A stretch of 49,343 nt of DNA from assembly GCA_003022725.1 (NCBI GenBank), contig PXSQ01000030.1:1-49343 (forward strand). Reading direction: 5' to 3'. The notes beneath the pieces were generated by a model, which had not been told where the DNA came from, searched no databases, and saw nothing but the letters and a program-made list of their open reading frames with translations. Origin of the DNA: Halobacteriales archaeon SW_7_65_23. Its GTDB lineage: Archaea; Halobacteriota; Halobacteria; Halobacteriales; Haloarculaceae. The position numbers and the translations under genes are program-made. Position 1 is the first letter of the stretch. The number at the start of each line of letters is the position of its first letter. Shown piece after piece: positions 610 through 49,343 of this stretch.

Positions 610-3210
610 GTGGTCGGCGTGAAACGCCGCGCGCTGGTGCTGGCAACGGTACTCGTCGTCTCGCTGGGCGTGGGCGTCACTGCCTTCTCCGGAACGGTAG
701 CAGCCGGAGCGCCGAACTGTGCCGATGTCGGCTACGAGGGAGCTGGAACGTCCGACAACCCGTATCAAGTCGGTAATGTCTCCCAACTCCAGTGTATCGA
801 GGAGCAGGGTCTCGATAATCACTACAAACTCACGCAGGATATCGACGCCAGCGGGACGAGCAGTTGGAACGACGGCTTCGATCCGATCGCAAACGACAGC
901 GAGTTTACGGGGACGTTCGACGGCGATGGACACACCGTCTCCGGTCTGACGATCGCACGACCCGCCGCAAACGAGACGGCACTGTTCGGTAGGGTCGGCG
1001 GCGACGGGACCGTCGAGAACCTCACGCTCGCCGACGCCGATATAACCGGACAGAACCAGGTCGGGACGGTCGTCGGCAACAACACCGGCGGCACCGTGCG
1101 GTTGGTCTCGGCCAGCGGCACCGTCAGCGGTGAGAACGACGCCGGCGGCCTCGTCGGCCGCAACAGCGGGACCGTCAACCGCTCGAACGCGTCGGTGGCA
1201 GTCGAGAGTTCGGGCGGGAGTGTCGGCGGACTCGTCGGCGGGAATATCGCCGGATCGGTGACGGAGTCCTACGCCACGGGCGACGCCGGAGCCCCCAGCG
1301 CGACATCAGTCGGTGGGCTCGTCGGGCTCTCCACGGCAGGGACGGTGAACGAGTCTTACGCCATGGGCAACGTGACAGGCGATTCGTATGTCGGCGGGCT
1401 CGTCGGTGACGTGCGGACTGAGGCCGGCAGTACGAGTGTCGTCGAACGCTCCTACGCGACGGGCACCGTGACGGGGAACACGAACGTCGGCGGTGTCGTC
1501 GGTGGGATGGCAGGTGCCTCGTTCAGCGACGAGTCCGTCCTCCGCGATTCCTATTTCGACGAACTGTCGACGAACCAATCGAGTGCGGTCGGATTCGCGT
1601 CGTTCGGGACGACCGTCGAAAACAACCAGGGATTCAATACGAGCGACGGGACGGGACGAGCGACCGAGATGACCGGTGTGGACGCGCCGGATAACATGAC
1701 CGCACTCGCCTTCCCCGGAACGTGGGCAGTTCGATCCGACGGGTATCCAGCGTTGGCGTGGCAGACAGTCGGTATCCAAGAACCAGCCGTTTTCGAGGTG
1801 AACGTCACCGATACGAACGCTCCCGTCACCGAAAGTGAGACACTGATAGTCACTGCGAACATCACCAACACGGGTTACGTCCAAGACACCCAGACGGTGA
1901 CGCTGAACGATACCGGCTTCAGTGACACCGAGCGGGACGCGGTTGACGTGACGCTGGCAGGTGGCGCGTCCAACGAATCGGTCGTGCTTGAGTGGACGAC
2001 CAGCGAGGGCGACGCCGGGACTGGTGATGTGACCGTCGCCAGCGAAAACGACTCCGCGACCCAGTCGGTCACCGTTCAGGAGCCGGCGAACTTCACCGTC
2101 GACGTGGTCGGGACCAACGAGCCAGTCGTCGAGGGTGACACCCTGGAAGTGACAGCCAACGTCACTAACACCGGTGACGTCCAGGCCACCCAGACCGTCA
2201 CGCTGACTGACACTGGATTCGCCGACTCACAGCGGGACGCCGTCGACGTGACGCTGGCAGGTGGCGCGTCCAACGAATCGGTCGTCCTGGAGTGGACGAC
2301 CAGCGAGGGCGATGCCGGCACCGGCGATGTCACGGTCGCGAGCGAAAACGACTCCGCTACTCAGTCCGTCACGGTCCAAGAACCGGCGAACTTCACCGTC
2401 GACGTCCTCAGCACGACCGCACCCGTTACCGAGGGTGACACTCTGGAAGTGACTGCCAACGTCACCAACACCGGCGACGCTCAGGCCACGCAGTCGATTA
2501 CCCTCACCGACACCGGATTCGCCGACTCACAGCGGGACGCCGTCGACGTGACGCTGGCGGCTGGCGCCTCCAACGAGTCGGTCGTGCTTGAGTGGACGCC
2601 GGCGAGCTTCACCGTCGACATCCTCAGCACGACCGCTCCGGTGACGGAGGGCGACACCCTGCAGGTGACCGCCAACGTCACTAACGCCGGTGACGTCCAG
2701 GCGACTCAGACCATCACGCTGACTGACACTGGATTCGCCGACTCACAGCGGGACGCCGTCGACGTGACGCTGGCAGGCGGCGCTTCCAACGAATCGGTCG
2801 TGCTTGAGTGGACGACCAGTGAGGGTGACGCCGGCACTGGTGACGTGACCATCGCGAGCGAAAACGACTCGGCTACCCAGTCCGTCACCGTCCAGGAACC
2901 GGCAGAGTTCACGGTTGATGTCATCAGTACGACTGCACCCGTTACCGAGGGTGACACCCTGGAAGTGACCGCCAACGTCACAAACATCGGCGACGCTCAG
3001 GCCACGCAGACCATCACCCTCACCGACACCGGATTCGCCGACTCACAGCGGGACGCCGTCGACGTGACGCTGGCGGCTGGCGCCTCCAACGAGTCGGTCG
3101 TGCTTGAGTGGACGCGTGGAGGGCGAGACCCTCGAAGTGACGGCGAACGTCACCAACACCGGAGACGTACAGGACACCCAGACGGTGACGCTGAACGATA
3201 CCGGGTTTGA
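610..3210 (+). CDS. Giant surface protein, segment 1: signal peptide, GLUG and CARDB repeats
   Basis: N-terminal part of a very large extracellular protein. The track start is a GTG at 610; the GTG at 619 (MKRRALVLATVL...) gives a cleaner signal peptide with a basic start, a hydrophobic core and an AxA-like cleavage region before GAPNC. Residues about 30-390 carry GLUG-type repeats (VGGLVG followed by SYATG-like strands), typical of secreted adhesins. From about residue 392, CARDB-like beta-sandwich repeats of roughly 100 residues begin (xFxVDVxxTxAPVxEGDTL...VTANVTNTGD...QSVTVQEP). One repeat near base 2597 is shortened in frame by about 28 residues. The native frame ends near base 3113 inside a repeat; residues after that (RGGRDPRSDG...) are out of frame, and the repeat continues in the next segment. 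Abundant N-x-S/T sequons fit an N-glycosylated S-layer-associated or adhesin-type protein. Confidence 0.8.
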   Translation: MVGVKRRALVLATVLVVSLGVGVTAFSGTVAAGAPNCADVGYEGAGTSDNPYQVGNVSQLQCIEEQGLDNHYKLTQDIDASGTSSWNDGFDPIANDSEFTGTFDGDGHTVSGLTIARPAANETALFGRVGGDGTVENLTLADADITGQNQVGTVVGNNTGGTVRLVSASGTVSGENDAGGLVGRNSGTVNRSNASVAVESSGGSVGGLVGGNIAGSVTESYATGDAGAPSATSVGGLVGLSTAGTVNESYAMGNVTGDSYVGGLVGDVRTEAGSTSVVERSYATGTVTGNTNVGGVVGGMAGASFSDESVLRDSYFDELSTNQSSAVGFASFGTTVENNQGFNTSDGTGRATEMTGVDAPDNMTALAFPGTWAVRSDGYPALAWQTVGIQEPAVFEVNVTDTNAPVTESETLIVTANITNTGYVQDTQTVTLNDTGFSDTERDAVDVTLAGGASNESVVLEWTTSEGDAGTGDVTVASENDSATQSVTVQEPANFTVDVVGTNEPVVEGDTLEVTANVTNTGDVQATQTVTLTDTGFADSQRDAVDVTLAGGASNESVVLEWTTSEGDAGTGDVTVASENDSATQSVTVQEPANFTVDVLSTTAPVTEGDTLEVTANVTNTGDAQATQSITLTDTGFADSQRDAVDVTLAAGASNESVVLEWTPASFTVDILSTTAPVTEGDTLQVTANVTNAGDVQATQTITLTDTGFADSQRDAVDVTLAGGASNESVVLEWTTSEGDAGTGDVTIASENDSATQSVTVQEPAEFTVDVISTTAPVTEGDTLEVTANVTNIGDAQATQTITLTDTGFADSQRDAVDVTLAAGASNESVVLEWTRGGRDPRSDGERHQHRRRTGHPDGDAERYRV

Positions 3211-3694
3211 CAGCGCCCAGCGAGACGCGGTGGACGTGACCCTGGCGGGTGGCGCCTCCAATGAATCGGTGACACTGGAGTGGGCGACTGTCGACGGCGA
3301 CACGGGCACGGGTAATGTGACTGTCGCCAGCGAGAACGACACGGACACGGAGCCGGTGACAGTGCAGGAACCGGCGTCGTTCGCGGTGAACGTCACGGAC
3401 ACGACCTCGCCGGTGGCTGAGGGTGAGACGCTGACTGTCACAGCCAACGTGACCAACGTGGGCGACGTCCAGGCCACCCAGACCGTGACGCTGGAGGACA
3501 CTGGATTCGACAGCCTCGAACGTGACGCGGTGGACGTGACGCTGGCGGCTGGCGCCTCCAACGAGTCGGTCGAACTCGAATGGGCGACTGCCGATGGCGA
3601 TGCGGGCACGGGCGACGTGACCGTCGCCAGTGAGAACGACACTGCGACCGAGTCATCACGAACACAGGTGACGTGCAGGAGACCCAGACGGTGA
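3104..3694 (+). CDS. Giant surface protein, segment 2 (shifted frame): two CARDB repeats
   Basis: Continuation of the same protein in another reading frame. The first residues overlap segment 1 out of frame; recognisable repeat sequence starts at VEGETLEVTANV near base 3116 and runs through one CARDB repeat and most of a second to ENDTATES near 3655, where the frame is lost again. Compared with intact repeats, roughly 45 residues are missing at the left junction and about 30 at the right junction, and neither loss is a multiple of three bases. There is no separate start signal, so this is not an independent gene. Either internal recombination between repeats or collapsed assembly of repeats would produce exactly this pattern. 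Confidence 0.6.
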   Translation: MSGRVEGETLEVTANVTNTGDVQDTQTVTLNDTGFDSAQRDAVDVTLAGGASNESVTLEWATVDGDTGTGNVTVASENDTDTEPVTVQEPASFAVNVTDTTSPVAEGETLTVTANVTNVGDVQATQTVTLEDTGFDSLERDAVDVTLAAGASNESVELEWATADGDAGTGDVTVASENDTATESSRTQVTCRRPRR

Positions 3695-6600
3695 CGCTGG
3701 AGGACACTGGGTTCGGTGGCGCCGAGCAGGACGCAGTCGAGGTGACGCTGGCGGGCGGCGAATCCAACGAGTCGGTGGTTCTGGAGTGGACCACTGCCGA
3801 TGGCGACGCGGGGACTGGTGACGTGACCGTCGCGAGTGAGAACGACACCGCGACTGAACCCGTAACTGTCGAAGAGCCCGCATCCTTCGACGTGGCGATC
3901 ACGGATACGAACGAACCAGTCATCCAGGGCGAGACCCTGTCGGTGACGGCGAACGTCACCAATACCGGAGACGCCCAGGCCACCCAAACGATCACGCTGG
4001 AAGACACTGGGTTCAGTGGCACCGAGCAGGACGCGGTAGACGTCACCCTGGCCGGCGGTGCCTCGAACGCGTCGGTGACTCTGGAGTGGGCAACAAGCTC
4101 GGGTGACGCCGGTAGCGGCGATGTTACGGCCGCAAGCGAGAACGACACCGATAGCACGCTAGTGACGGTGCAGGACCCGGCGTCGTTCGCGGTCGAAATC
4201 GTCGATACCACCTCGCCGGTCGTGGAGGGCGAGACGCTGTCGGTCACCGCGAACGTGACGAACACAGGTGACGTGCAGGAGACCCAGACGGTGACGCTGA
4301 ACGATACCGGGTTCGGTGGCGCCGAGCAGGATGCGGTGGATGTCACCCTGGCTGGCGGAGCGTCCAATGCGTCCGTGGTTCTGGAATGGACGACGGCGGA
4401 CGGCGACGCAGGCACGGGCGATGTTACGGTCGCCAGCGACAACGACACCGAATCCCGAAGCGTGACCGTCGAGGAGGCCCGGGCGAACTTCTCGGTGTCC
4501 ATCGACAACACGAGCGCACCCGTCGTCGAGGGTGATACCCTCTCGGTCAACGCCACCGTCAAGAATGTCGGCGACGCGACCGGCGCCCGGGATGTCAACC
4601 TCACCGACTTCGACGGGGCGGAGGTCGATACCCAGTCCGTGAGTCTCGCGGCGGAGGAGAAAACGACGGTCACGCTCAACTGGAGCACGAGCACCGGCGA
4701 CGCCGGCTCCGACAACGTGACGGTCGCCAGCGACAACGACAGCGCTTCACGGAACGTGACGGTCAACGCACCCGCGTTCTTCGCAGTCACGATCGACAGT
4801 GCCAACGCCTCGGTAACCGAGGGCGAGGATGTCGTCGTCGACTACACCGTCGAAAACACTGGCGGCGTATCCGATACCCAGGACATCATTTTCCGGGTGA
4901 ACGGGACGCAGAACGACACGGAATCCGGGGTTACCCTGAACGCTGGCGGGACGTTCAGCGACTCCTTCGTCTACCCGACGGGGGACAGTGATGTCCCCGC
5001 GATCACGGTGAACGTCAGCAGCGACGACGACGGCGCCGAGCGAACCGTCACCGTCAACGGCGTTCTGACAGCCCAGAACGACAGTTACACGGTTGACGAA
5101 GACGGGTCGCTGTCAGTGTCGGAATCGAACGGAACACTCGACAACGACACCGATCCCGACGGTGACTCGCTGTCGGCGTCGCTGGATTCGGATGTCTCGA
5201 ACGGGACCCTGACGTTGCACGACAACGGGAGCTTCGAGTACGTTCCAGACTCCGATTTCAACGGCGAGGACAGCTTCACCTACAAGGCTGACGACGGGGC
5301 GGGCGGGACCGACACCGCGACGGTGACGATCACGGTCAACGCGATCAACGACGCACCGACAGCCAACGACCTCTCGGTTACGACTGACGAGGACACCGCA
5401 GTCTCCGGAACATTCGACGCGAGCGATCCTGACGACAGTTCGCTGTCGTACTCGATTGCGAGTGCTCCGAGCAACGGAACAGTGTCGGTTAGCGGTGACG
5501 GATTCACCTACACACCTGATTCCGACTACGCTGGCAGTGATTCGTTCACATACGAGGTCAGCGACGACGACGGCGCGACGGACATGGCGACGGTGACGAT
5601 CACGGTCAACGCGATCAACGATGCGCCGATCGCAGCCAACGATAGCTACACCGTTGACGAGGACGGAACGCTGTCAGTGTCGGAAGCGAACGGCACGCTC
5701 GCCAACGACACCGATCCCGACAGCGGCGCGCTGTCGGCAACGCTGGCCTCGGATGTCTCGAACGGCTCGCTGACGCTGTACGCCAACGGGAGCCTCACGT
5801 ACACGCCCGACGACGGGTTCACTGGAACGGATTCATTCACCTACGAGATAACCGACGGCAACGGCGGCTCGGATACAGCGACAGTGACGTTCAACGTCAC
5901 AGCGACTGCGACCTCACAGTTGGACCAGGACGAGTACGTCCTGGAGTCCGACAGCGGCCAGACGATCACCGGCACCTCCACGAAGGCCGCCGGTAGCGAG
6001 GTCACTGTCCGCATCGAGAGTGAGGACCTGAACAACCCGTTCGTTGACCGCCAGACGGTCAGCGTCGAATCCGACGGCACCTTCAGTGCCGAGTTCGACG
6101 TGAGCTCCCTGCCGGAGGGAACGAACCTCACGGTCCAGCTCTTCAACTCCAACGGCAACGAGATCGACACCGCGACGGCTCGCATCGCGCAGCCGGCGAG
6201 CTTCGAGGTCTCCAACCTCGACGCCCCGTCGACCGCGGTGATCGGCGACACCGTCACGGTGACGGCTGACGTCACGAACACCGGTGACGTCGAAGGCACG
6301 ACGGACGTCGAGTACGTCTTCGCCGGCGACGTCATCAGTGAACTGACGCAGTCGGTCACGCTCTCGGGTGGCGCGACGGAGACCGTCACCTTCGAGATCC
6401 TGATCATCGAGGACATCCCGCCGGGCACCTACGAGCACGGTGTTCGGGCTGGCGACGGCTCGCGGTTCGCGGAGATCACGATCCTGGAGGAGCAGCCGGC
6501 GAGCTTCGAGGTCTCCAACCTCGACGCCCCGTCGACCGCGGGGTTCGGCGACACCGTCACGGTGACGGCTGATGTCACGAACACTGGCGACATCCAAGGC

Positions 6601-9600
6601 AGGACGGTCGTCGAGTACGTCTTCGCCGGCGACGTCATCAGTGAACTGACGCAGTCGGTCACGCTCTTTGGTGGCGCGACGGAGACCGTCACCTTCGAGG
6701 TGCCGATCAGCGAGGACGTCCCGCCGGGCACCTACGAGCACGGTGTTCAGGCTGGCGACGGCTCGCAGTTCGCGGAGATCACGATCGAGGAGCAGCCCCC
6801 GCCGACCGCCGAGAACGACAGCTACACTGTCCCGGAGGACGCGACGCTGTCGGTGTCGACGGAAAACGGCACGCTAGCCAACGACACCGATCCCGACGGC
6901 GACGCGCTGTCGGCGACGCTGGTTTCGGACGTCTCGAACGGCTCGCTGACGCTGTACGCTAATGGAAGCTTCGAGTACGTTCCAGACCCCGATTTCAACG
7001 GTGAGAACAGCTTCACCTACGAGGCGAGCGACGGGTCGGGCGACACGGATACAGCGAGTGTCACGATCACGGTGTCGGCGGTCAACGACGCCCCGGAGAT
7101 CACGTCCGGGCCCGCGAACGCCACTATAGACGAGGAGAACGCGACGGTACTGTCAGTGGCCGCGAACGACGCCGACGGGGACGCACTCTCCTACGACTGG
7201 AATCTGAGCGGGATCGGAAGCCTGAACGCGACGTCCGGGGCCTCGGTCAGATACGACGCCCCCGACGAACTGGCTTCGGAAGATACCGCGACGATAACGG
7301 TCACTGTCAACGACAGTACCACCGAGATCACGGCGACGGCCACGATTACCGTGCGTCCAGTCAACGACGCCCCGGAGATCACGTCGCCACCGATGAACGC
7401 GACGGTCGATGAGGAGAACAGTACCGTTCTCTCGGTGACTGCGACCGACAACGACACTACCGATACGCTCTCCTACAACTGGACCCTGACCGGCAACGGC
7501 AGCCTAAATACGACGACCAGCACGTCCATCAGATACGACGCCCCCGAGGAACTCACCTCGAACGGGACCGCGACAGTGACGGTCTCGGTCAACGACAGCG
7601 AGGCGAACGCGACCGCCACGGCCACGATCACGATTGTAGCGGTCAACGGCGCGCCAACCGCAGCCAACGACAGCTACACCGTCGACGAGGATGGGACGCT
7701 ATCCGTGTCGGCAGCGAACGGTACGCTTGCCAACGATACCGACCCAGAGGGCGGCTCGCTGTCGGCGTCGGTCGTCTCCTGGCCCTCTAACGGCAGCCTG
7801 ACGCTTTTCGCAAACGGCTCCTTCGAGTACACGCCCGATACTGACTTCAACGGCCAGGATAGCTTCACCTACGAGGCGAGCGACGGGTCGGGCGGCACGG
7901 ATACAGCGAGTGTCACGATCACGGTGTCGGCGGTCAACGACGCCCCGGAGATCACGTCCGGGCCCGCGAACGCCACCCTCGATGAGGAGAACAGTACCGT
8001 TCTCTCGGTGACGGCGACCGACAACGACACTACCGATACGCTCTCCTACAACTGGACCCTGACCGGCAACGGCAGCCTAAATACGACGACCAGCACCACC
8101 GAGGTCACAGCGACGGCCACGGTCACGGTCAATCCAGTCAACGACGCCCCCAAGATCACGTCCTCGCCTGCGAGTGCTACCGTCGACGAGGAGAACAGTA
8201 CCGTTCTCTCGGTGACGGCGACCGACAACGACACTACCGATACGCTCTCCTACAACTGGACGCTGACCGGCAACGGCAGTTTGAACGCCTCCTCGGGAAC
8301 AGCCGTCAGATACGACGCCCCCGACGAACTTGCCTCGCAGGAGGACGTGACGCTGACCGTCACTGTCAATGACAGCATCACAGAAGTCACGGCGACGGCG
8401 ACGGTCACGGTCAATCCAGTCAACAACGCTCCCGAGATCACGTCGGCACCCGCGAACGCCACCGTCGATGAGGGTAACGAGACCGTGCTGTCGGTGGAGG
8501 CGACCGACAACGACGGTGACGCGCTCTCCTACAACTGGACACTGACCGGTAATGGAGGGCTCAATGACACCTCCGGAACCGCCGTGCGGTACGACGCCCC
8601 CGACGAACTCGCCTCGCGGGAGAACGTGGCGGTTACCGTCACGGTCGACGACGGAACCGCGAACGTGTCGGCCAACGCTACCGTGACGGTCAATCCGGTC
8701 AACGACGCTCCCGAGATCACGTCCGGGCCAGCGAACGCCACCGTCGACAAGGGGAACACGACGGTGCTGTCGGTGACTGCGGCCGACAACGACACCACAG
8801 ATACGCTCTCCTACACTTGGACGCTGACCGGCAACGGCAGTCTGAACGCCACATCCGGGACGTCGGTCAGATACGACGCTCCGGACGAACTCGCGGCCAA
8901 CCGGACTGCGACCGTGCGAGTCAACGTGAGCGACGGGACGACGAACGCGACCGCAACGGCAACGATCACCATCGTCGCGGTCAACGATGCGCCGACCACA
9001 GCCAACGACAGCTACAGCGTTGACGAGGACGCGACCCTGTCGGTGTCGGCGGAAAACGGCACGCTGGCGAACGACACCGACCCCGACGGCGATATCCTGA
9101 ACGCCTCGGTTGTGCGTGGTCCGTCGAATGGGAGCTTGACGCTTTTCACCAACGGATCCTTCAAGTACGTGCCCGACCGCGATTTCAACGGGGAGGACAG
9201 CTTCACCTACGAGGCCAGCGACAGAGCGGGCGGGACCGACACGGCGATGGTCACGATCACGGTTTCCGCAGTGAACGACGCCCCCGAAATCACGTCGGCG
9301 CCCGCGAACGCCACGGTTGAGGAGAAGAACTCCACCGTCCTGTCGGTGGAGGCGACGGACGCCGACGGCGACACGCTCTCTTACACTTGGACGCTGGCAG
9401 GGAACGGCAGTCTGAACGCGACATCAGGCACGTCGATCAGATACGACGCCCCCGAGGAACTCGCCGCGAACGAAACCGCGACGGTGACTGTCTCGGTCAA
9501 CGATAGCACGGCGAGCGCGACCGCGACGGTGACGATCACGGTCGTCGCGGTCAACGACGCGCTGACCGCAGCCAACGACAGCTACACCGTCCCGGAAGAC

Positions 9601-11676
9601 GGGACACTGTCTGTATCAGCGGCGAACGGCACGCTCGCCAACGATACCGATCCCGACGGCGATGTGCTGAACGCCTCGGTCGTGAGCGGTCCGTCGAACG
9701 GGAGTCTCACGCTGTACGCCAACGGCTCCTTCGAGTACACGCCGGCTCCCGACTTCAACGGCGAGGACAGCTTCACCTACCAGGCAAGCGATGGAGCGGG
9801 CGGGACCGATACAGCGACGGTGACCATCAACGTTTCCGGAGTCAACGACCCACCCGAGATCACGTCCGAGCCCGCGGACGCGACCGTCGACGAAGGGAAC
9901 GCAACAGTGCTGTCGGTGGACGCGACGGACGCCGACGGAGACGTGCTGTCGTATGCCTGGAATCTCTCGGGGACCGGCAGCCTGAACGAGACGTCGGGGA
10001 CGGCAGTCAGATACGACGCTCCCAATGATATCGACGCAACGACCGACGTGACCGTGACGGTCACGGTGGACGACGGGAAGGAAACCGACTCGGCGACGGC
10101 AATCGTGACGGTCGAACCGGTCAACGAGCCGCCGACCGCCGAGAACGACAGTTACAGTGTGGACGAAGGCACGACTCTGGCGGTGTCGGCGGCGAACGGG
10201 ACGCTGGCTAATGACGCCGATCCGGACGGAGATTCCCTATCGGCGTCGGTCGTCTCCGGGCCGTCGAACGGCACGCTCACTCTCCACGCCAACGGCTCAT
10301 TCGCGTACGCGCCCGATTCGGGCTTCACCGGGACCGATTCGTTCACCTACGAAGCGAGTGACGGCAATGGTGACAGTGATACGGCGACAGTGACAATCAC
10401 TGTAACCGGATCGCAACCCACGCCAGCGAACTTCACGGTCGTGATTACAGACACGAACGCGCCGGTCGTCGAAGGGGAGACACTGACAGTCACTGCGAAC
10501 ATCACCAACACGGGCGATGTCAAAGCCACACAGACGGTGACACTGACCGATAGCGGCTTCGACGGTATCGAGCGGGACGGGATAGACGTGACGCTGGCTG
10601 GCGGCGAGTCCAACGCGTCGGTGGTTCTGGAGTGGACCACCACCGAGGGCGATGCCGGGACTGGTGATCTGACCGTCGCTACCCAAAACGATTCGACGAC
10701 TGAAGCGGTGACCATCGAGCCAGCCGACACCAACGCTCCTCCGACAGCGACTGATGATAGCTATACTGCCACCGAAGGCGAGACGCTCACGGTGAGTGTA
10801 CCAGGCGTCCTCGACAACGACACCGACCCCGATGGTGACGATCTCACCGTTTCGACGCCCGCAGAAACCGACACCGAAAACGGAACGCTCACACTGAACG
10901 CCGACGGGAGCTTCGAGTACACGCCCGATGACGGCTTCACTGGCACCGACTCATTCACCTACGAGGTGACCGACGGCAGTGGTGGGTCAGACACGGCGAC
11001 AGTAACGATCAACGTCACAGCGACTGCGACCCCGCAGTTCGCGGTCAGCATCACGAATACGAACGCACCGGTGACCGAAGGCGATACCCTCACAACGAGC
11101 GTCACCGTCAACAACGTCGGGGGTGCCGCTGGAACGCAGACGATCACGCTCGAAGCGTTCGATAGCTCCCAGGTCGACAGCCAGTCCGTCTCGCTGAACC
11201 CGGACGAAACAGCAACGATCACGCTTGAGTGGGCGACCCAAGTCGGAGACGCAGGTAGCGGCGATCTCACCGTCGCAAGCGAGAACGACACGGCGACACG
11301 GAGTGCAACAGTCAACGCTGCCGACACGAACGACCCGCCGGTCGCCAGCGACGATAGCTATACCACGCCCGAAAACGAGACACTGGCAGTCTCCGTGCCG
11401 GGTGTCCTCGAAAACGATACCGACCCGGACGGTGACAGCCTCACTGTGACGGTCCTCAACGCACCGTCGAACGGCGGACTCGACCTAAGAGCTGACGGCT
11501 CATTTGAGTACACGCCCGACGCAGGGTTCACCGGCCTCAGCACTCTCTGGACTCTCAATCGCCGGTCAGGGAATGTCGGCGACGATCACCGAAGGCGACG
11601 ACGAGAACGTCGCAGTCACCGTCGAAAACACGGGCGAGCAATCCGGGGCGTTCACGGTCACGCTCAATATCGGTAA
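3673..11676 (+). CDS. Giant surface protein, segment 3: CARDB, cadherin-like and Ig-like repeat array
   Basis: Central 2667-residue segment, open for 8 kb. Real sequence starts near base 3660 in the middle of a CARDB repeat. In order: CARDB repeats to about base 5070; three cadherin-like/VCBS-type repeats (NDSYTVDEDGxLSVS...NGTLxNDTDPDGD...FTYEASDG); a different beta domain near 5920; two nearly identical CARDB-like repeats at about 6190 and 6500; then an alternating array of cadherin-like repeats and Ig/REJ-like repeats (NDAPEITSxPANATVDE...LSYNWTLTGNGSLN...YDAPDEL) to about 10400; then CARDB and cadherin-like repeats again. The Asp/Asn-rich DTDPDGD loops look like calcium-binding linkers. 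One Ig-like repeat is truncated in frame near 8095. The frame is lost near 11533 inside a cadherin-like repeat, just after GFTG. The likely role is a long extracellular stalk or adhesin. Confidence 0.8.
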   Translation: MQETQTVTLEDTGFGGAEQDAVEVTLAGGESNESVVLEWTTADGDAGTGDVTVASENDTATEPVTVEEPASFDVAITDTNEPVIQGETLSVTANVTNTGDAQATQTITLEDTGFSGTEQDAVDVTLAGGASNASVTLEWATSSGDAGSGDVTAASENDTDSTLVTVQDPASFAVEIVDTTSPVVEGETLSVTANVTNTGDVQETQTVTLNDTGFGGAEQDAVDVTLAGGASNASVVLEWTTADGDAGTGDVTVASDNDTESRSVTVEEARANFSVSIDNTSAPVVEGDTLSVNATVKNVGDATGARDVNLTDFDGAEVDTQSVSLAAEEKTTVTLNWSTSTGDAGSDNVTVASDNDSASRNVTVNAPAFFAVTIDSANASVTEGEDVVVDYTVENTGGVSDTQDIIFRVNGTQNDTESGVTLNAGGTFSDSFVYPTGDSDVPAITVNVSSDDDGAERTVTVNGVLTAQNDSYTVDEDGSLSVSESNGTLDNDTDPDGDSLSASLDSDVSNGTLTLHDNGSFEYVPDSDFNGEDSFTYKADDGAGGTDTATVTITVNAINDAPTANDLSVTTDEDTAVSGTFDASDPDDSSLSYSIASAPSNGTVSVSGDGFTYTPDSDYAGSDSFTYEVSDDDGATDMATVTITVNAINDAPIAANDSYTVDEDGTLSVSEANGTLANDTDPDSGALSATLASDVSNGSLTLYANGSLTYTPDDGFTGTDSFTYEITDGNGGSDTATVTFNVTATATSQLDQDEYVLESDSGQTITGTSTKAAGSEVTVRIESEDLNNPFVDRQTVSVESDGTFSAEFDVSSLPEGTNLTVQLFNSNGNEIDTATARIAQPASFEVSNLDAPSTAVIGDTVTVTADVTNTGDVEGTTDVEYVFAGDVISELTQSVTLSGGATETVTFEILIIEDIPPGTYEHGVRAGDGSRFAEITILEEQPASFEVSNLDAPSTAGFGDTVTVTADVTNTGDIQGRTVVEYVFAGDVISELTQSVTLFGGATETVTFEVPISEDVPPGTYEHGVQAGDGSQFAEITIEEQPPPTAENDSYTVPEDATLSVSTENGTLANDTDPDGDALSATLVSDVSNGSLTLYANGSFEYVPDPDFNGENSFTYEASDGSGDTDTASVTITVSAVNDAPEITSGPANATIDEENATVLSVAANDADGDALSYDWNLSGIGSLNATSGASVRYDAPDELASEDTATITVTVNDSTTEITATATITVRPVNDAPEITSPPMNATVDEENSTVLSVTATDNDTTDTLSYNWTLTGNGSLNTTTSTSIRYDAPEELTSNGTATVTVSVNDSEANATATATITIVAVNGAPTAANDSYTVDEDGTLSVSAANGTLANDTDPEGGSLSASVVSWPSNGSLTLFANGSFEYTPDTDFNGQDSFTYEASDGSGGTDTASVTITVSAVNDAPEITSGPANATLDEENSTVLSVTATDNDTTDTLSYNWTLTGNGSLNTTTSTTEVTATATVTVNPVNDAPKITSSPASATVDEENSTVLSVTATDNDTTDTLSYNWTLTGNGSLNASSGTAVRYDAPDELASQEDVTLTVTVNDSITEVTATATVTVNPVNNAPEITSAPANATVDEGNETVLSVEATDNDGDALSYNWTLTGNGGLNDTSGTAVRYDAPDELASRENVAVTVTVDDGTANVSANATVTVNPVNDAPEITSGPANATVDKGNTTVLSVTAADNDTTDTLSYTWTLTGNGSLNATSGTSVRYDAPDELAANRTATVRVNVSDGTTNATATATITIVAVNDAPTTANDSYSVDEDATLSVSAENGTLANDTDPDGDILNASVVRGPSNGSLTLFTNGSFKYVPDRDFNGEDSFTYEASDRAGGTDTAMVTITVSAVNDAPEITSAPANATVEEKNSTVLSVEATDADGDTLSYTWTLAGNGSLNATSGTSIRYDAPEELAANETATVTVSVNDSTASATATVTITVVAVNDALTAANDSYTVPEDGTLSVSAANGTLANDTDPDGDVLNASVVSGPSNGSLTLYANGSFEYTPAPDFNGEDSFTYQASDGAGGTDTATVTINVSGVNDPPEITSEPADATVDEGNATVLSVDATDADGDVLSYAWNLSGTGSLNETSGTAVRYDAPNDIDATTDVTVTVTVDDGKETDSATAIVTVEPVNEPPTAENDSYSVDEGTTLAVSAANGTLANDADPDGDSLSASVVSGPSNGTLTLHANGSFAYAPDSGFTGTDSFTYEASDGNGDSDTATVTITVTGSQPTPANFTVVITDTNAPVVEGETLTVTANITNTGDVKATQTVTLTDSGFDGIERDGIDVTLAGGESNASVVLEWTTTEGDAGTGDLTVATQNDSTTEAVTIEPADTNAPPTATDDSYTATEGETLTVSVPGVLDNDTDPDGDDLTVSTPAETDTENGTLTLNADGSFEYTPDDGFTGTDSFTYEVTDGSGGSDTATVTINVTATATPQFAVSITNTNAPVTEGDTLTTSVTVNNVGGAAGTQTITLEAFDSSQVDSQSVSLNPDETATITLEWATQVGDAGSGDLTVASENDTATRSATVNAADTNDPPVASDDSYTTPENETLAVSVPGVLENDTDPDGDSLTVTVLNAPSNGGLDLRADGSFEYTPDAGFTGLSTLWTLNRRSGNVGDDHRRRRRERRSHRRKHGRAIRGVHGHAQYR

Positions 11677-14428
11677 CGGGACCGTCACCGAATCAGCGAC
11701 GACTGCCGAACTCGCTGCTGACGAAACGGACACCGTCACATTCGAAAACGTCACGGGGAGCCTCAGTCCCGGAGAATACGAGGTTGATGTGACGACTCCA
11801 GATGACGAACTGACCGGAACCCTATCGGTCTCTCAAGAACTGGAGCCAGCGACGTTCGACGTCACGATCGATACCATACCCGATACCGTTACTGCCGGTG
11901 AAGAGCTGGTCGTCGAGTACACCGTCGAGAACACTGGTGACGAGACCGCAACGCAGGACATCGTGTTCCAGATCAACGGGAGTCAGACAGCAGTTGACGA
12001 TACCGTCCAACTATCGGGTGGAGAGAGTAGCACTGGACAGTTCACCTACCGCACCGACGAGAGTGATATCCCGACCGTTGAAGTAACAATACTCAGCGAC
12101 GATGACGCGGCAACTACGAGTGTCTCCGTCGACACGACAGAGACTAACTCCCCGCCCGAGGCAAGCAATGACAACTACACCGTCTTCGAAAATGAAACAC
12201 TCTCAGTGAATGCGCCGGGTATCCTCGCCAACGACTCCGACCCCGACGGCGACGATCTCACGGTCTCGATACCGGCTACAACACCGCCCGACAACGGAAA
12301 CCTCTCTCTGAACGCCAACGGGAGTTTCGCGTACACGCCCGATAATGGCTTCACTGGCGAGGATACGTTCGCCTATGAGGTGACCGACGGCAACGGTGGG
12401 TCGGACACAGCGACAGTAACCATCACTGTGACGGAGGGAGCGGCTCCTGCCGAACCGGCACTCTCCGACCTCTCGATCGCTGGTCAAGGCACGTCGGCGA
12501 CGATCACCGAAGGCGACGACGGGAACGTCGCAGTCACCGTCGAAAACGTCGGCGAAACCAGTAGCACGTTCACGGTCACGCTCAATATCGGTAACGGGAC
12601 CGTCACCGAATCAGCGACGACTGCCGAACTCGCCGCCGACGAAACGGACACCGTCACCTTCGAGGGAGTCACTAGCGGTCTCGCGCCCGGTGAGTACGAT
12701 GTTGCAGTTACAGCCGATGACGCGAACCAGACCGGCGCGTTGACTATCTCCGAGGCATCTGACCCACCGGAGCCCGATCCCGCCGAATTCGATACGACGA
12801 TCACCAACGTGAACGACTCGGTCGTCGCTGGTGATACCGTTACGGTCGCCTATACCGTCGAAAACGTTGGCGATGAGACCGGCACGCAGGATGTCACGTT
12901 CACAGTGAACGGAACCGTCGAGACAACGGTTGCGGATATCGCTCTCGACGGGAGTGAATCGACGACTGGAACGGTCACGTACGAGACGAACGCCAGTGAC
13001 ACACCGGCCATTTCGGTTGCTATCGAAAGCGACGATGACACCGCGACTGAGACAGTCACCGTCCAAGGCGTTCCCGAACTCACCATCGGCGAGTTCGATG
13101 ACGAGTTCCCGAACGCGACGGAAGAGACCAACTACGGAACGGTTGCAATTCCGGTCGCAGAAACCGCTGGCGTCGAATCGTCGAATCTCACTGTCCAGTT
13201 AGTCATCGCGGGCGACGACGGTGAGCTCGTCAACGAGACGATCGCCGACCGTGAACTGGCGAACGAATCCGCAACGTTCGAGTTCGATGTCGGAACGATC
13301 GATGCCCCCGACGAGTACACGGCAACTGTGAGCGTCGACGCCGAAACCGCAGACTCAGTCTCCGCACGCCACGTCTTTGCGGTTGCTGCTGACGACGATA
13401 GTTCTGACTCGGACGATAGTTCTGACTCGGACGACAGTTCAGACGACGAGTCGGAACTTGAGATCGACCAACGTGACGACGGCTCGGCAGAGCGTCTGCT
13501 CCTGACGGTCCAGAATCCCGCCGACGGGGAGCAATTCGAGATCGATCTCGCAGCCGAAAACCGCCCACTAGCGACAGACATTGTGACTATCGACGCACTC
13601 ACATTCAATGCATCGAGCCAGCAGGACCTGGAGCTGACGCTCACTGCGACCTCGACGCCGACGGAGACGACACCGAATCAGACTGTGCCAGCCCAAAGCG
13701 ACGTGACGCTCGGGTATCTCAGCGTCGAGAACGGCTCCGCCGTCGAGAACGTCTCCTTCGAGTTTACACTCGACGAAGAGACGCTTGACGAGCAGGGCGC
13801 ACCGCCCGAGACGGTCGTCTTCCACCGGTACAACGAAACGTCCGAGACGTGGGTAGCGAAGAACACGACGCTCCAGAACCGCTCGAACGGAGAACTACGG
13901 TACCGGACGGTCGTCGAGTCGTTCTCCGAGTGGGTGGTGACCGCCGACCGGCCAGAGCTTACGGTGACGAACACGGCGGTTGCGACGACGACGGCTACCC
14001 CCGGTGAGTCCGTTGCGGTCGACGTGACGGTCACAAACGACGGGAATGCTGCTGGCAACCGGACGGTCGAACTGATCGCTGACGGGCAGGTCGTTGCCAC
14101 CGAAACGGTCAGTCTCGACGGGGGAGAGACACGGGACGTGTCGCTTTCGACAACGTTCGACGACCCGGGTGAGTACGACCTCGCAGTCGGCGACACTACT
14201 GTTGGCTCGGTCACGATCCAGTCCGAGACTGGCACTCCCTCAGATCCAGGAACGCCAACGGATGGGACCGACGAACCGACAGAAACGAACGAACCTGACA
14301 CGGAAACAGAGCCGTCCGACGGCGACGGAAGTGGATTCCCGTGGTGGACGGTTGTTGTCGGTATCGTGCTCACCGCCATCATCGCAGCTGCCGCCCTCTG
14401 GTACCGGAACGACAAGACTACGGAGTAA
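11504..14428 (+). CDS. Giant surface protein, segment 4: CARDB repeats, acidic linker, C-terminal membrane anchor
   Basis: C-terminal part of the same protein in a shifted frame; authentic sequence starts near base 11545 (ALSGLSIAGQG, repeated almost exactly near 12460). It carries CARDB-like repeats, one cadherin-like repeat near 12140, a low-complexity acidic linker (SDSDDSSDSDDSS, residue about 630), a domain resembling the pre-PGF region found before haloarchaeal surface anchors (VVESFSEWVVTADRP), a last CARDB repeat, a Thr/Pro/Glu-rich stalk, and one transmembrane helix (WWTVVVGIVLTAIIAAAALW) followed by a short charged tail. A canonical PGF motif for archaeosortase is not visible, so simple membrane anchoring is likelier than sortase processing. 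The stop at 14426-14428 is followed by a promoter for the DUF433 gene. Confidence 0.8.
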   Translation: MSTRPTQGSPASALSGLSIAGQGMSATITEGDDENVAVTVENTGEQSGAFTVTLNIGNGTVTESATTAELAADETDTVTFENVTGSLSPGEYEVDVTTPDDELTGTLSVSQELEPATFDVTIDTIPDTVTAGEELVVEYTVENTGDETATQDIVFQINGSQTAVDDTVQLSGGESSTGQFTYRTDESDIPTVEVTILSDDDAATTSVSVDTTETNSPPEASNDNYTVFENETLSVNAPGILANDSDPDGDDLTVSIPATTPPDNGNLSLNANGSFAYTPDNGFTGEDTFAYEVTDGNGGSDTATVTITVTEGAAPAEPALSDLSIAGQGTSATITEGDDGNVAVTVENVGETSSTFTVTLNIGNGTVTESATTAELAADETDTVTFEGVTSGLAPGEYDVAVTADDANQTGALTISEASDPPEPDPAEFDTTITNVNDSVVAGDTVTVAYTVENVGDETGTQDVTFTVNGTVETTVADIALDGSESTTGTVTYETNASDTPAISVAIESDDDTATETVTVQGVPELTIGEFDDEFPNATEETNYGTVAIPVAETAGVESSNLTVQLVIAGDDGELVNETIADRELANESATFEFDVGTIDAPDEYTATVSVDAETADSVSARHVFAVAADDDSSDSDDSSDSDDSSDDESELEIDQRDDGSAERLLLTVQNPADGEQFEIDLAAENRPLATDIVTIDALTFNASSQQDLELTLTATSTPTETTPNQTVPAQSDVTLGYLSVENGSAVENVSFEFTLDEETLDEQGAPPETVVFHRYNETSETWVAKNTTLQNRSNGELRYRTVVESFSEWVVTADRPELTVTNTAVATTTATPGESVAVDVTVTNDGNAAGNRTVELIADGQVVATETVSLDGGETRDVSLSTTFDDPGEYDLAVGDTTVGSVTIQSETGTPSDPGTPTDGTDEPTETNEPDTETEPSDGDGSGFPWWTVVVGIVLTAIIAAAALWYRNDKTTE

Positions 14429-15336: not shown

Positions 15337-15394
15337 TGTCGGTAATCTCGGAAATTCACTGATACAGTTGATAGTATGATAAGAAAGGCCGCTG

Positions 15395-15504
15395 ATACTG
15401 GTGGCTGTAAGTACGTGAAAACTCGAATTAAGAATCCAGGCGGAGCGGGTCTGTATCCGCAGATAGCAGGGACTGGTGAGTAAAAGAATTACAGCCACCA
15501 GTAT
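15395..15504 (-). mobile_element. 110-bp MITE, copy 1 (family with ATACTGGTGGCTGTAA ends)
   Basis: Perfect 16-bp terminal inverted repeats: ATACTGGTGGCTGTAA at 15395-15410 and TTACAGCCACCAGTAT at 15489-15504. Read on the minus strand, the interior matches copies 2 and 4 (45523 and 49150) over nearly its whole length with a few substitutions. No target duplication is obvious. Non-coding; the ORFs that run out of it (for example the long N-terminal extension of the cupin ORF) are artefacts. Confidence 0.8.
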
Positions 15505-15646
15505 GAGAAGGGATCCGAAGCAGTTTCTGATCGCGGATTTGGGCGAGACTACGCATCACAGTCTCCCTATACCCCGTGTAGTCTCAACTTCCATGGTCCC
15601 TCGGCGAGGAAAATGGTATGTTCGGTGCGGGTGTAGCGTGATCTGT

Positions 15647-19389: not shown

Positions 19390-19634
19390 AGTTGTGGCGT
19401 TGTTCGGTCATCGCCGCCTGCGACCCCTCGCCACGATGCGGGGAGAGACCTTTCTCGATCAGTTTCCGTGCCGTCCCCTCGTCGTCGACGGTGACGTCGG
19501 TGTCGGGCAGCCTGACGGTCAGCACCGGACAGGTCGTGTCTGACGATCCGTTCCTGGTCGGCCGCGGCCTCCCCCAGCAGCGACGTCAGGTCCGGTGAGA
19601 TTCAGCCCCAAACCGGTCGATTCCTGTGGCCCTG

Positions 19635-19716
19635 ATAGTGATTATTGTGACTGTTTACCGGGTCGACCGCACGCAGTCGCGCGGTCGATCCCGGAACGAC
19701 TCACAATAATCACTAT
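19635..19716. repeat. 82-bp palindromic MITE-like element
   Basis: Perfect 16-bp outer arms: ATAGTGATTATTGTGA (19635-19650) and TCACAATAATCACTAT (19701-19716). The inner parts are also near-complementary (CCGGGTCGACCGC against GCGGTCGATCCCGG), so almost the whole element could fold into one long hairpin. It has no coding capacity. It lies 20 bp upstream of the first metal-type operator and could be a MITE, a transcription insulator or a hairpin terminator. Confidence 0.6.
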
Positions 19717-19735
19717 GAGATGACACTCGGAATTT

Positions 19736-31517: not shown

Positions 31518-31530
31518 TCGGCCCCGTCTC
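31500..31530. terminator. Strong GC hairpin at the end of the DUF2064-like gene
   Basis: GAGACGGGGCC (31500-31510) and GGCCCCGTCTC (31520-31530) form a perfect 11-bp stem with a 9-nt loop containing the stop codon. No T-run follows; instead a MITE end begins at the next base. It could stabilise the 3' end or terminate transcription, but archaeal termination normally depends on T-tracts, so this is tentative. Confidence 0.4.
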
Positions 31531-31567
31531 ATACTGGTGGCTGTACGTACGTGAAAACTCGAATTCA
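31531..31567 (-). mobile_element. Solo end of the 110-bp MITE family (copy 3, remnant)
   Basis: ATACTGGTGGCTGTA-GTACGTGAAAACTCGAATT matches the first about 36 bp of copy 1 at 15395 with one or two changes, then similarity stops; the other terminal repeat is absent. A truncated or decayed copy abutting the hairpin. Confidence 0.7.
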
Positions 31568-31705
31568 AACTCCCGTTCACAGACCTGCCGAGTTTCCCAC
31601 ACGGACAGTTAAGTGACAGGCCGCCCTACGTCGATGTAGGAATCACTCGGAACGGAGCGGATTCCGAACCGTCCTCCGGATGTAGACGGAACCGAGAGCC
31701 GAGCG

Positions 31706-43405: not shown

Positions 43406-45523
43406 ATGGAAGCGAAGCGGGAGCTGACGAGCGTCGACATCGCGGCCCTCGCGGGCGAGCTTGGCGCCTACGAGGGCGCCCGCCTGGAGAAGGCGTACCT
43501 GTACGACGACGGGTTCGTCCGGCTGAAGCTGCGCGACTACGACCGCGGCCGCCTCGAGCTGTTGATCGACACCAGCGACACCAAACACGTCCGGCTCGCC
43601 GAGCCCGAACACGTCCCGCCGGCACCCGAGCGGCCGCCGAACTTCGCGATGATGCTGCGCAACCGCATGGAGGGTGCCACCCTCTCGGGCGTCGAGCAGT
43701 TCGAGTTCGATCGCATCCTCCAGCTATCCTTCGAGCGCGACGACGGCCACACCACGCTCGTCGCGGAGCTGTTCGGCGACGGCAACCTCGCCGTGCTGGA
43801 CGGCGCCGGCGAGGTGATCGACTGCCTGCAGACGGTCCGGCTCAAGTCCCGCACCGTCGCGCCGGGGGCACCTTACGAGTTCCCCGACGCCCGGTTCAAT
43901 CCGCTGTCGGTCGACCGCGAGGGGTTCGCGGCCAGGCTCCGCCAGTCCGACACCGACGTCGTCCGGACGCTCGCAACGCAGCTGAACTTCGGCGGGCTCT
44001 GGGCCGAGGAGCTGTGTACCCGCGCCGGCGTCGAGAAGACCCTCGACATCGAGGAACTCGGAGACGACGACGTCGACCGCCTGTACGAGACCGTCGGCGA
44101 CCTCGCCGACCGCCTGCGCGCCGGCGACCTCGATCCGCGGGTGTACCGCGAGGACGACCGCCGGGTCGACGTCACGCCCGTGCCGCTGGAGGAGCACGCT
44201 GCCCTCGACGCCGACCGGTTCGATGCGTTCACTGCCGCGCTCGACGACTACTTCACGCACTTCGAGACGGACGCCGACGAGGAGCCGGTCGACAGCGGGC
44301 CGGACAGGCCGGACTTCGAGGCCGAGATCGAGAAGAAACAGCGGATCATCGAACAGCAGGAGGGTGCCATCGAGTCCTTCGACGAGCAGGCCGAGGCCGA
44401 GCGCGAAAAGGCCGAACTGCTGTACGCCAACTACGACCTCGTCGACGAGGTGCTGTCGACGATCCGCGGCGCCCGCGACGAGGGGGTCGGTTGGGACGCG
44501 ATCGCCGAGCGGTTCGAACAGGGCGCCGAACAGGGGATCGCCGAGGCGGAGGCCGTCCAGTCGGTCGACGGCAGCGAGGGGACGGTCACCCTCCGGATCG
44601 ACGACCACGACGTCACGCTTGACGTCTTCGAGGGCGTCGAACGCAACGCCGACCTCCTCTACCAGGAGGCAAAGCGGGTCGAAGAGAAAAAAGAGGGCGC
44701 CAAGGCAGCCATCGAGAACACCCGCGCGGAACTCGAGGAGATCAAAGAGCGCCGCGAGGAGTGGGAAGCACGCGACCGAAACGGCGACGACGGGAAGGGC
44801 GGCGACGACGAGGACGAGGAAGCGAAAGACATCGACTGGCTCGCACGCGCGTCGATCCCGATCCGCAAATCCGAGGAGTGGTACGAGCGGTTCCGGTGGT
44901 TCCACACCAGCGACGGCTTCCTGGTGATCGGCGGGCGCAACGCCGACGGGAACGAGGAGATCGTCAAGAAGTACCTCGACCGCGGCGACCGGTTCCTGCA
45001 CGCCCAGGCCCACGGCGGCCCGGCCACTGTGCTGAAGGCGACCGGACCCAGCGAGTCCTACGACGACGACGTCGAAATTCCACAGACCTCGCTGCAAGAG
45101 GCCGCGCAGTTCGCGGTCTCATACTCCTCGGTCTGGAAGGACAGCAAGTACGCCGGCGACGTGTACGTGGTCGACGACGACCAGGTGTCGAAGACGCCCG
45201 AGAGCGGCGAATATCTGGAGAAGGGCGGCTTCGCAATCCGCGGGGACCGCACGTACTTCGACGACATAGCCGTCGGCGTCGCGGTCGGCATCACCTGCGA
45301 GCCGGAGACGCGGGTGATCGGTGGCCCGCCGTCGGCGATCGACCCCCGCGCCGAGACCACGATCGCGGTCGAACCCGGGAAGTTCGCCCAGGGTGACGTG
45401 GCCAAGCGGTGCTACCGTGAGTTCCGCGGGCGGTTCGCCGACGAGTCGTTCGTCCGGAAAGTCGCCAGCCCCGACCTGATCCAGGAGTTCCTGCCGCCGG
45501 GGACGAGCACCATCTCCGAGTGA
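43406..45523 (+). CDS. rqcH: Ribosome rescue / quality-control factor RqcH (NEMF/Rqc2 family)
   Basis: 705 residues from ATG 43406. It binds the large ribosomal subunit with stalled peptidyl-tRNA. NFACT-N domain at the N-terminus (LTSVDIAALAGELGAYEGARLEKAYL; NFAMMLRNRMEGATL), a helix-hairpin region, then long coiled coils (about residues 300-350 and 425-470), an acidic Gly/Asp/Glu-rich linker, and the NFACT-R domain (about 490-620: WFHTSDGFLVIGGRN, DRFLHAQAHGGPATV). The C-terminus lacks a large extra domain. It is divergent from the kinase gene. A 110-bp MITE begins at the last base of the TGA stop codon, so the reading frame is just intact. Confidence 0.92.
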   Translation: MEAKRELTSVDIAALAGELGAYEGARLEKAYLYDDGFVRLKLRDYDRGRLELLIDTSDTKHVRLAEPEHVPPAPERPPNFAMMLRNRMEGATLSGVEQFEFDRILQLSFERDDGHTTLVAELFGDGNLAVLDGAGEVIDCLQTVRLKSRTVAPGAPYEFPDARFNPLSVDREGFAARLRQSDTDVVRTLATQLNFGGLWAEELCTRAGVEKTLDIEELGDDDVDRLYETVGDLADRLRAGDLDPRVYREDDRRVDVTPVPLEEHAALDADRFDAFTAALDDYFTHFETDADEEPVDSGPDRPDFEAEIEKKQRIIEQQEGAIESFDEQAEAEREKAELLYANYDLVDEVLSTIRGARDEGVGWDAIAERFEQGAEQGIAEAEAVQSVDGSEGTVTLRIDDHDVTLDVFEGVERNADLLYQEAKRVEEKKEGAKAAIENTRAELEEIKERREEWEARDRNGDDGKGGDDEDEEAKDIDWLARASIPIRKSEEWYERFRWFHTSDGFLVIGGRNADGNEEIVKKYLDRGDRFLHAQAHGGPATVLKATGPSESYDDDVEIPQTSLQEAAQFAVSYSSVWKDSKYAGDVYVVDDDQVSKTPESGEYLEKGGFAIRGDRTYFDDIAVGVAVGITCEPETRVIGGPPSAIDPRAETTIAVEPGKFAQGDVAKRCYREFRGRFADESFVRKVASPDLIQEFLPPGTSTISE

Positions 45524-45632
45524 TACTGGTGGCTGTAATTCTTTTACTCACCAGTCTCTGCTCTCTGCGGAGACAGACCCGTTCCGCCTGGATTCTCAAT
45601 TCGAGTTTTCACGTCCTTACAGCCACCAGTAT
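45523..45632 (+). mobile_element. 110-bp MITE, copy 2, inserted at the rqcH stop codon
   Basis: Perfect 16-bp terminal inverted repeats (ATACTGGTGGCTGTAA at 45523-45538; TTACAGCCACCAGTAT at 45617-45632), extended here by GTG/CAC outside. The interior matches copy 1 in inverse orientation and copy 4 directly. It is likely to form the 3' UTR of rqcH. Confidence 0.82.
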
Positions 45633-45800
45633 CACTTGAGGCGGAGACGACAGCGAACGTACATTGGGACCCCGAAGTCGCAATTGTCGCCCCATAGACA
45701 GGTTGTATCTCGGTTCGGACGTCACCCCGAGAACAGATGTCTTTACGGGAACGCCGATACAATCCGGGCTGACACGACTGGTAGACGACGTTGCTGGCGC

Positions 45801-49100: not shown

Positions 49101-49149
49101 GCATCGGGTAGTAAGTCGCTCGCTGAGCGATCCGACTCTGTACTTTCTC

Positions 49150-49343
49150 ATACTGGTGGCTGTAATTCTTTTACTCACCAGTCTCTGCTAGACAGCCAGA
49201 CGTGATTCAGATACGCCATGCCGTCCCAACTCCCGTTGTTCGGGCCATGACACAGCCGATGGACTGTCCTGGCACTGGACGGAGTCACGTCTGGCTGTCT
49301 ATCTGCGGAGACAGACCCGTTCCGCCTGGATTCTCAATTCGAG
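49150..49343 (+). mobile_element. 110-bp MITE, copy 4, interrupted by another element and cut by the window end
   Basis: The left end ATACTGGTGGCTGTAA (49150-49165) and the following TTCTTTTACTCACCAGTCTCTG match copy 2 exactly. The match resumes at 49302 (TCTGCGGAGACAGACC...) and runs to the end of the window. The right terminal repeat should lie just outside. Between them is the nested element at 49191-49299. Confidence 0.82.
49191..49299. mobile_element. Nested 109-bp MITE with TA target duplication
   Basis: Perfect 15-bp terminal inverted repeats GACAGCCAGACGTGA (49191-49205) and TCACGTCTGGCTGTC (49285-49299), flanked by TA on both sides. Copy 1 of the host MITE has a single TA at the same place, so the TA was duplicated on insertion. 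TA duplication is typical of IS630/Tc1-mariner-type transposition. The interior is non-coding. Confidence 0.82.

Follow-up and report, generated by a model that had tools for sequence, protein, structure and literature searches.

A nested MITE at the end of a haloarchaeal contig is one copy of a composite family that most likely moves as a unit

The feature at positions 49189–49301 of the window is one copy of an established composite MITE, in which an inner element is nested in an outer one, and not a fresh local insertion. The window is the whole stretch of 49,343 nucleotides that was analyzed, contig C30 of a 2.63-Mb assembly with 115 contigs and 79% completeness. The nested MITE family is real and well supported, and the two nested elements most likely move together, as one unit, by way of the outer ends. 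An earlier note on this DNA described a MITE inside a MITE with an exact TA duplication, which both the sequence and an empty site confirm. The note also took the insertion to be readable as a local event. That view gives way to one of a repeated family with 3-bp TSA duplications of its own.

The order of sequences at the site is read directly as ...CTCACCAGTCTCTGC-TA-GACAGCCAGACGTGA...TCACGTCTGGCTGTC-TA-TCTGCGGAGACAG..., and the features are listed in Table 1. The inverted ends of the inner element are exact over 15 bp. The outer MITE is 108 bp long and the composite 219 bp, and the outer right end is absent from the window because the contig stops at 49343.

Table 1. Positions of the composite element, its parts and the related outer copies in the window
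Feature	Position	Strand	Remarks
Left 3-bp target duplication of the composite, TCA	49148..49150	.	right partner lies past the contig end
Outer MITE, left arm, TACTGGTGGCTGTAATTC...GTCTCTGC	49151..49188	+	98% to the copy at 15464-15509
Inner target duplication, left TA	49189..49190	.	sequence and empty-site comparison
Inner MITE, 109 bp, terminal inverted repeats GACAGCCAGACGTGA	49191..49299	+	ends pair in the predicted single-strand fold
Inner target duplication, right TA	49300..49301	.	sequence
Outer MITE, right arm, truncated at the contig end	49302..49343	+	sequence and repeat comparison
Outer MITE copy with empty TA site, flanks TCA/TCA on the minus strand	15393..15506	-	sequence
Outer MITE copy without inner element, site TC, flanks TGA/TCA	45521..45634	+	sequence
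Outer MITE, right-end fragment	31518..31573	-	sequence comparison

The outer copy at 15396–15503 (minus strand) reads CTGC-TA-TCTGCGG without interruption; therefore, exactly one TA is duplicated at 49189–49301. The copy at 45524–45631 (plus strand) reads CTGC-TC-TCTGCGG, with TC where TA is expected. Both copies had been proposed as empty sites; the former serves as one with an exact TA, but the latter does not match. In about 774 kb of the window's genome, the intact outer sites are TA in 21 cases and TC in 8. No excision footprint was found among them, and empty outer sites differ from filled ones by exactly one TA.

The inner family is not a product of chance, because its ends gave 170 matches in the 2.63-Mb genome with up to two mismatches, compared with 7 for a reversed control pattern. 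The outer ends gave 311 matches with up to one mismatch, compared with 3 for the control. At least 40 near full-length inner copies are present in the window's genome, and the element has the properties of a MITE, being short, non-coding and multicopy, with inverted repeats and a target duplication. The family is also abundant in the same-genus Halobacteriales archaea QS_4_66_20 and SW_10_66_29, and diverged inner copies occur in a further genome, QH_2_65_14. When the genome collection was scanned with TATACAGCCAGACGTGA, the haloarchaeal MAGs with matches were only these three, and six scattered matches were judged to be chance; two viral ones are likely chance too. The three MITE-rich genomes (that of the window, QS_4_66_20 and SW_10_66_29) are all incomplete as assembled, and the public collection labels two of the three as MAGs. 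The outer MITE also occurs, at 92–96% identity, in G137 and G115, which belong to two further genera of the family, and this suggests recent transfer or MAG contamination.

Other repeats in the window should be noted. A fourth short foldback element of 88 bp lies at 19632–19719, with 42-nt arms that are 81% complementary; copies are found at L092 4362–4450, L111 14974–15060, L102 1645–1732 and elsewhere, many at 94–98%. The long stretch at 1782–13067 contains direct repeats of 300 bp and 570 bp, probably those of a very large repetitive surface protein.

Among the inner copies read with their flanks, composites with both outer arms number 46 in three genomes, 36 with the inner element in one orientation and 10 in the other, and both orientations are present in each genome. 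The composites thus found in three species lie at different genomic places with different outside flanks. In addition, 12 half copies have an outer arm on one side of the inner element only, and about 54 inner copies stand alone at unrelated sites. All inner copies within outers occupy one TA, at position 39 of the outer consensus, and no stand-alone inner copy is found in any of the four other internal TAs of the outer element. The TA used is in the loop of an 8-bp hairpin, GTCTCTGC-TATCT-GCGGAGAC. This hairpin appears in the predicted single-strand folds of the outer consensus and of the copy at 45524, and is not in the predicted fold of the copy at 15396, whose arms carry changes. The targets of stand-alone inner copies are at most slightly palindromic: the mean length of the longest palindrome arm is 4.54 as compared with 4.29 (sd 0.14), a weak excess that 7 of 200 controls reached.

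The target duplications distinguish the inner element from the others. TA directly precedes 103 of 115 inner ends, and TA flanks both sides of 42 of the 54 stand-alone copies, the remainder being mostly changed on one side. The lack of TA flanks at other copies, which had been set beforehand as the observation that would count against the insertion, is accordingly not what is seen. In outer copies without the inner element, the three bases that flank the two ends are identical direct repeats in 46 of 56 copies, and the repeated triplet is nearly always TCA or TGA. The composites have exact 3-bp duplications of the same kind (TCA/TGA) in 12 of 17 cases, and a third family, with ends TACTGTCGGACGTAA, has exact 3-bp duplications in 19 of 25. 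None of these three sets has more than one exact 2-bp repeat. Two empty sites show the 3-bp duplication directly, by the loss of TGA at one outer site and of TCA where a third-family copy had inserted into an outer. Orthologous empty sites in other species, those of a single stand-alone inner copy and a single outer copy, had diverged too far to show a duplication. A composite bordered by its own 3-bp duplication fits insertion as a unit by machinery that recognizes the outer ends. The same flanks result when an outer element inserts first and is filled later; the weight given to transposition as a unit comes from these duplications together with the low diversity of the composites and their shared end bases, as described below.

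The third family is nested in outers too. In L107 (16398–16688), the inner element is at its usual TA and a third-family element is at a TCA in the right arm of the same outer, and the outer in L295 (2860–3190) also holds both. Therefore, nesting in one copy dates no family against another, and the nested set is a network of families active over overlapping times. Nesting had been expected to give the relative age of the two families. It is no such marker, because the inner element lies in many outers in both orientations and the third family is nested as well. As a separate observation, a third-family element is found repeatedly at the same TCA in the outer left arm, beside the inner element, in the composites of L092, L122, L124 and L295, suggesting a hot spot or an amplified three-layer element.

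The origin of the composites can be explained in several ways. The contig of the window ends within a repeat of a draft assembly, where an assembler might have joined repeats of two families. However, composites are found by the dozen in the interior of contigs in three separate assemblies, where their flanks are unique and their 3-bp duplications match, and such an artefact is extremely improbable. A biological alternative is that each composite arose independently, when the inner element inserted at a strict hot spot in an outer already in place, and that the pair never transposes. The presence of both orientations and several inner lineages at a single TA agrees with this scheme; the hairpin loop is a possible target feature, the insertion of Haloquadratum SMR-A elements offers a precedent, and the 3-bp duplications around composites are equally expected if the outer arrived first. 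The scheme does not agree with the diversity of the inner sequences. The mean pairwise difference is 0.051 in the majority-orientation composites, compared with 0.08–0.10 in the stand-alone copies. Moreover, both inner ends have G as the outermost base in 39 of 46 composites and in none of 53 stand-alone copies (Fisher p 1e-20, a value that ignores relatedness), as for a family derived from few founders. We regard independent insertion in every case as improbable.

At the other extreme, the inner element may have inserted once, been inverted by recombination between its inverted repeats of 15–20 bp and altered by gene conversion, and then spread with the outer as a unit. The perfect inverted ends of the inner element would permit such an inversion, the G..C ends are present in both orientations, and the existence of half copies, in which an outer arm is joined to unique sequence, suggests that recombination takes place at inner copies as well. 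The tree of the 109-bp inner sequences is poorly resolved, but a single clade is rejected by the AU test both for the composite inners taken together (p 0.016) and for the minority orientation (p 0.007), and is not rejected for the majority orientation (p 0.07). Recombination between copies can mimic several entries, as the half copies indicate, and could cause these rejections. A single insertion is rather less probable and is not the reading we favor. That inner lineages are mixed and both orientations occur points to more than one entry into the TA, or to exchange between copies. The most economical explanation is that a few entries into the same TA were followed by amplification of the composite and by sequence exchange among composites through their shared arms.

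In the mechanism that we propose, a 109-bp inner element of the TA-duplicating IS630/Tc1-mariner type would have entered the hairpin-loop TA of a 108-bp outer MITE, which itself would move with 3-bp TSA (TCA or TGA) duplications. A transposase supplied in trans would then have acted on the outer ends and mobilized the resulting 219-bp composite, as a unit, many times over. The inner element may have entered the same TA more than once, in both orientations, or its sequence may have been exchanged between copies. We consider this account as a whole, with an IS630-type outer, a TA-type inner and a composite mobilized in trans, to be probable. A further-reaching proposal, which we make tentatively and hold to be doubtful in its full form, is that the inner element repeatedly and specifically enters one hairpin-loop TA of the outer in both orientations and in several species, that the composite is a new mobile unit in which the inner end bases have changed from T..A to G..C, which may fix the inner element where it is, and that an IS630 subgroup duplicates TNA in place of TA.

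IS630 elements usually duplicate TA. The earlier note pointed to an IS630/Tc1-mariner-type transposase acting in the genome, and the involvement of such enzymes in trans is plausible by analogy of the ends and duplications. No DDE_3 (PF13358) gene is found in the MITE-rich genomes, namely the window's genome, G008 and G011, all of which are incomplete. The proposed search for an IS with GACAGCCAGACGTGA ends also found none; the G in those ends is typical of composites, and the stand-alone copies start with T. In the DNA stretches of the MITE-rich genomes, pairs of inner, outer or third-family ends about 800–3100 bp apart enclose no recognizable transposase.

Related elements are found in other genomes of the family. 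Among IS630 elements read there with both ends, in a search that favored matching duplications, five with transposases 68–99% identical to the L164 protein have ends like TACTGTCGGCTGAAAATTCT and 3-bp TNA duplications (TGA, TTA, TTA, TCA and TGA), whereas twelve more distant ones (41–54%) have TA duplications. The end positions agree across copies, giving 1070 bp in four of the five and 1055 bp in most of the twelve. The IS630-family elements with TNA duplications in place of TA lie in L372, L373, L375, L377 and L379, and have a length of about 1070 bp (1114 bp in L379). The L164-type transposase matches the NCBIfam IS630 model (NF033545). The right end of the outer MITE has TAAGTACGTGAAAA in common with an IS630 end in L164, and its left end resembles the other end of that element. 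The match to the L164/L372 element ends, as judged by eye, is partial (approximately 13 of 17 bases on the left and 19 of 26 on the right). The outer element thus shares IS630 ends but has 3-bp TSA duplications in those 46 of 56 copies instead of the canonical 2-bp TA, and on these sequence features it is best seen as a putative MITE of the TNA-duplicating IS630 subgroup. The inner element has the 2-bp TA duplication of IS630/Tc1-mariner elements. No autonomous element with its ends and a DDE_3 transposase was found; by eye, 11 of 15 end bases match one end of an IS630 element in L384. The inner element would fit a TA-duplicating IS630 relative whose gene the assemblies lack.

These elements provide a natural, highly replicated archaeal case in which the fusion of two MITE families has given a composite that most likely spreads as a unit, and the mechanism can be read from sites both empty and filled and from inner elements in either orientation. 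The results also point to a haloarchaeal IS630 subgroup with 3-bp TNA duplications, which departs from the TA rule used in classifying such elements, and nested MITEs should not serve as simple relative-age markers. The way in which one TA came to be occupied repeatedly, and the 3-bp rule seen in the IS630 subgroup, deserve to be followed up.

In the open-licence literature, we found no closer case of nested MITEs in archaea than the one described below, and the word "nested" is absent from a review of prokaryotic MITEs (PMC10969869). In that literature, no paper that brings IS630 and TNA duplication together turned up either, which is weak evidence of novelty. The closest precedent is SMR-A of Haloquadratum walsbyi. 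These elements measure about 110 bp, have inverted ends and insert at palindromes within PATEs and IS605-type elements, making no target duplication (PMC3119063). The inner element is like SMR-A in its size, prominent inverted ends, high copy number and location at a palindrome inside another small mobile element. Unlike SMR-A, it duplicates TA, and its host is a MITE with inverted ends and 3-bp duplications, whereas the hosts of SMR-A are PATEs and IS605-type elements with near-terminal palindromes. Compared with the MITEs of IS630/Tc1-mariner elements, the inner element is alike in its TA duplication, though no autonomous partner was found for it. The outer is alike the IS630 elements of haloarchaea in its ends, but the outer and its likely subgroup duplicate 3 bp (TNA), not TA. 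General nested MITE clusters also have one MITE inside another. In contrast to these, the nested pair described here was itself multiplied and carries target duplications of its own, and the third family adds a further layer in L107 and L295.
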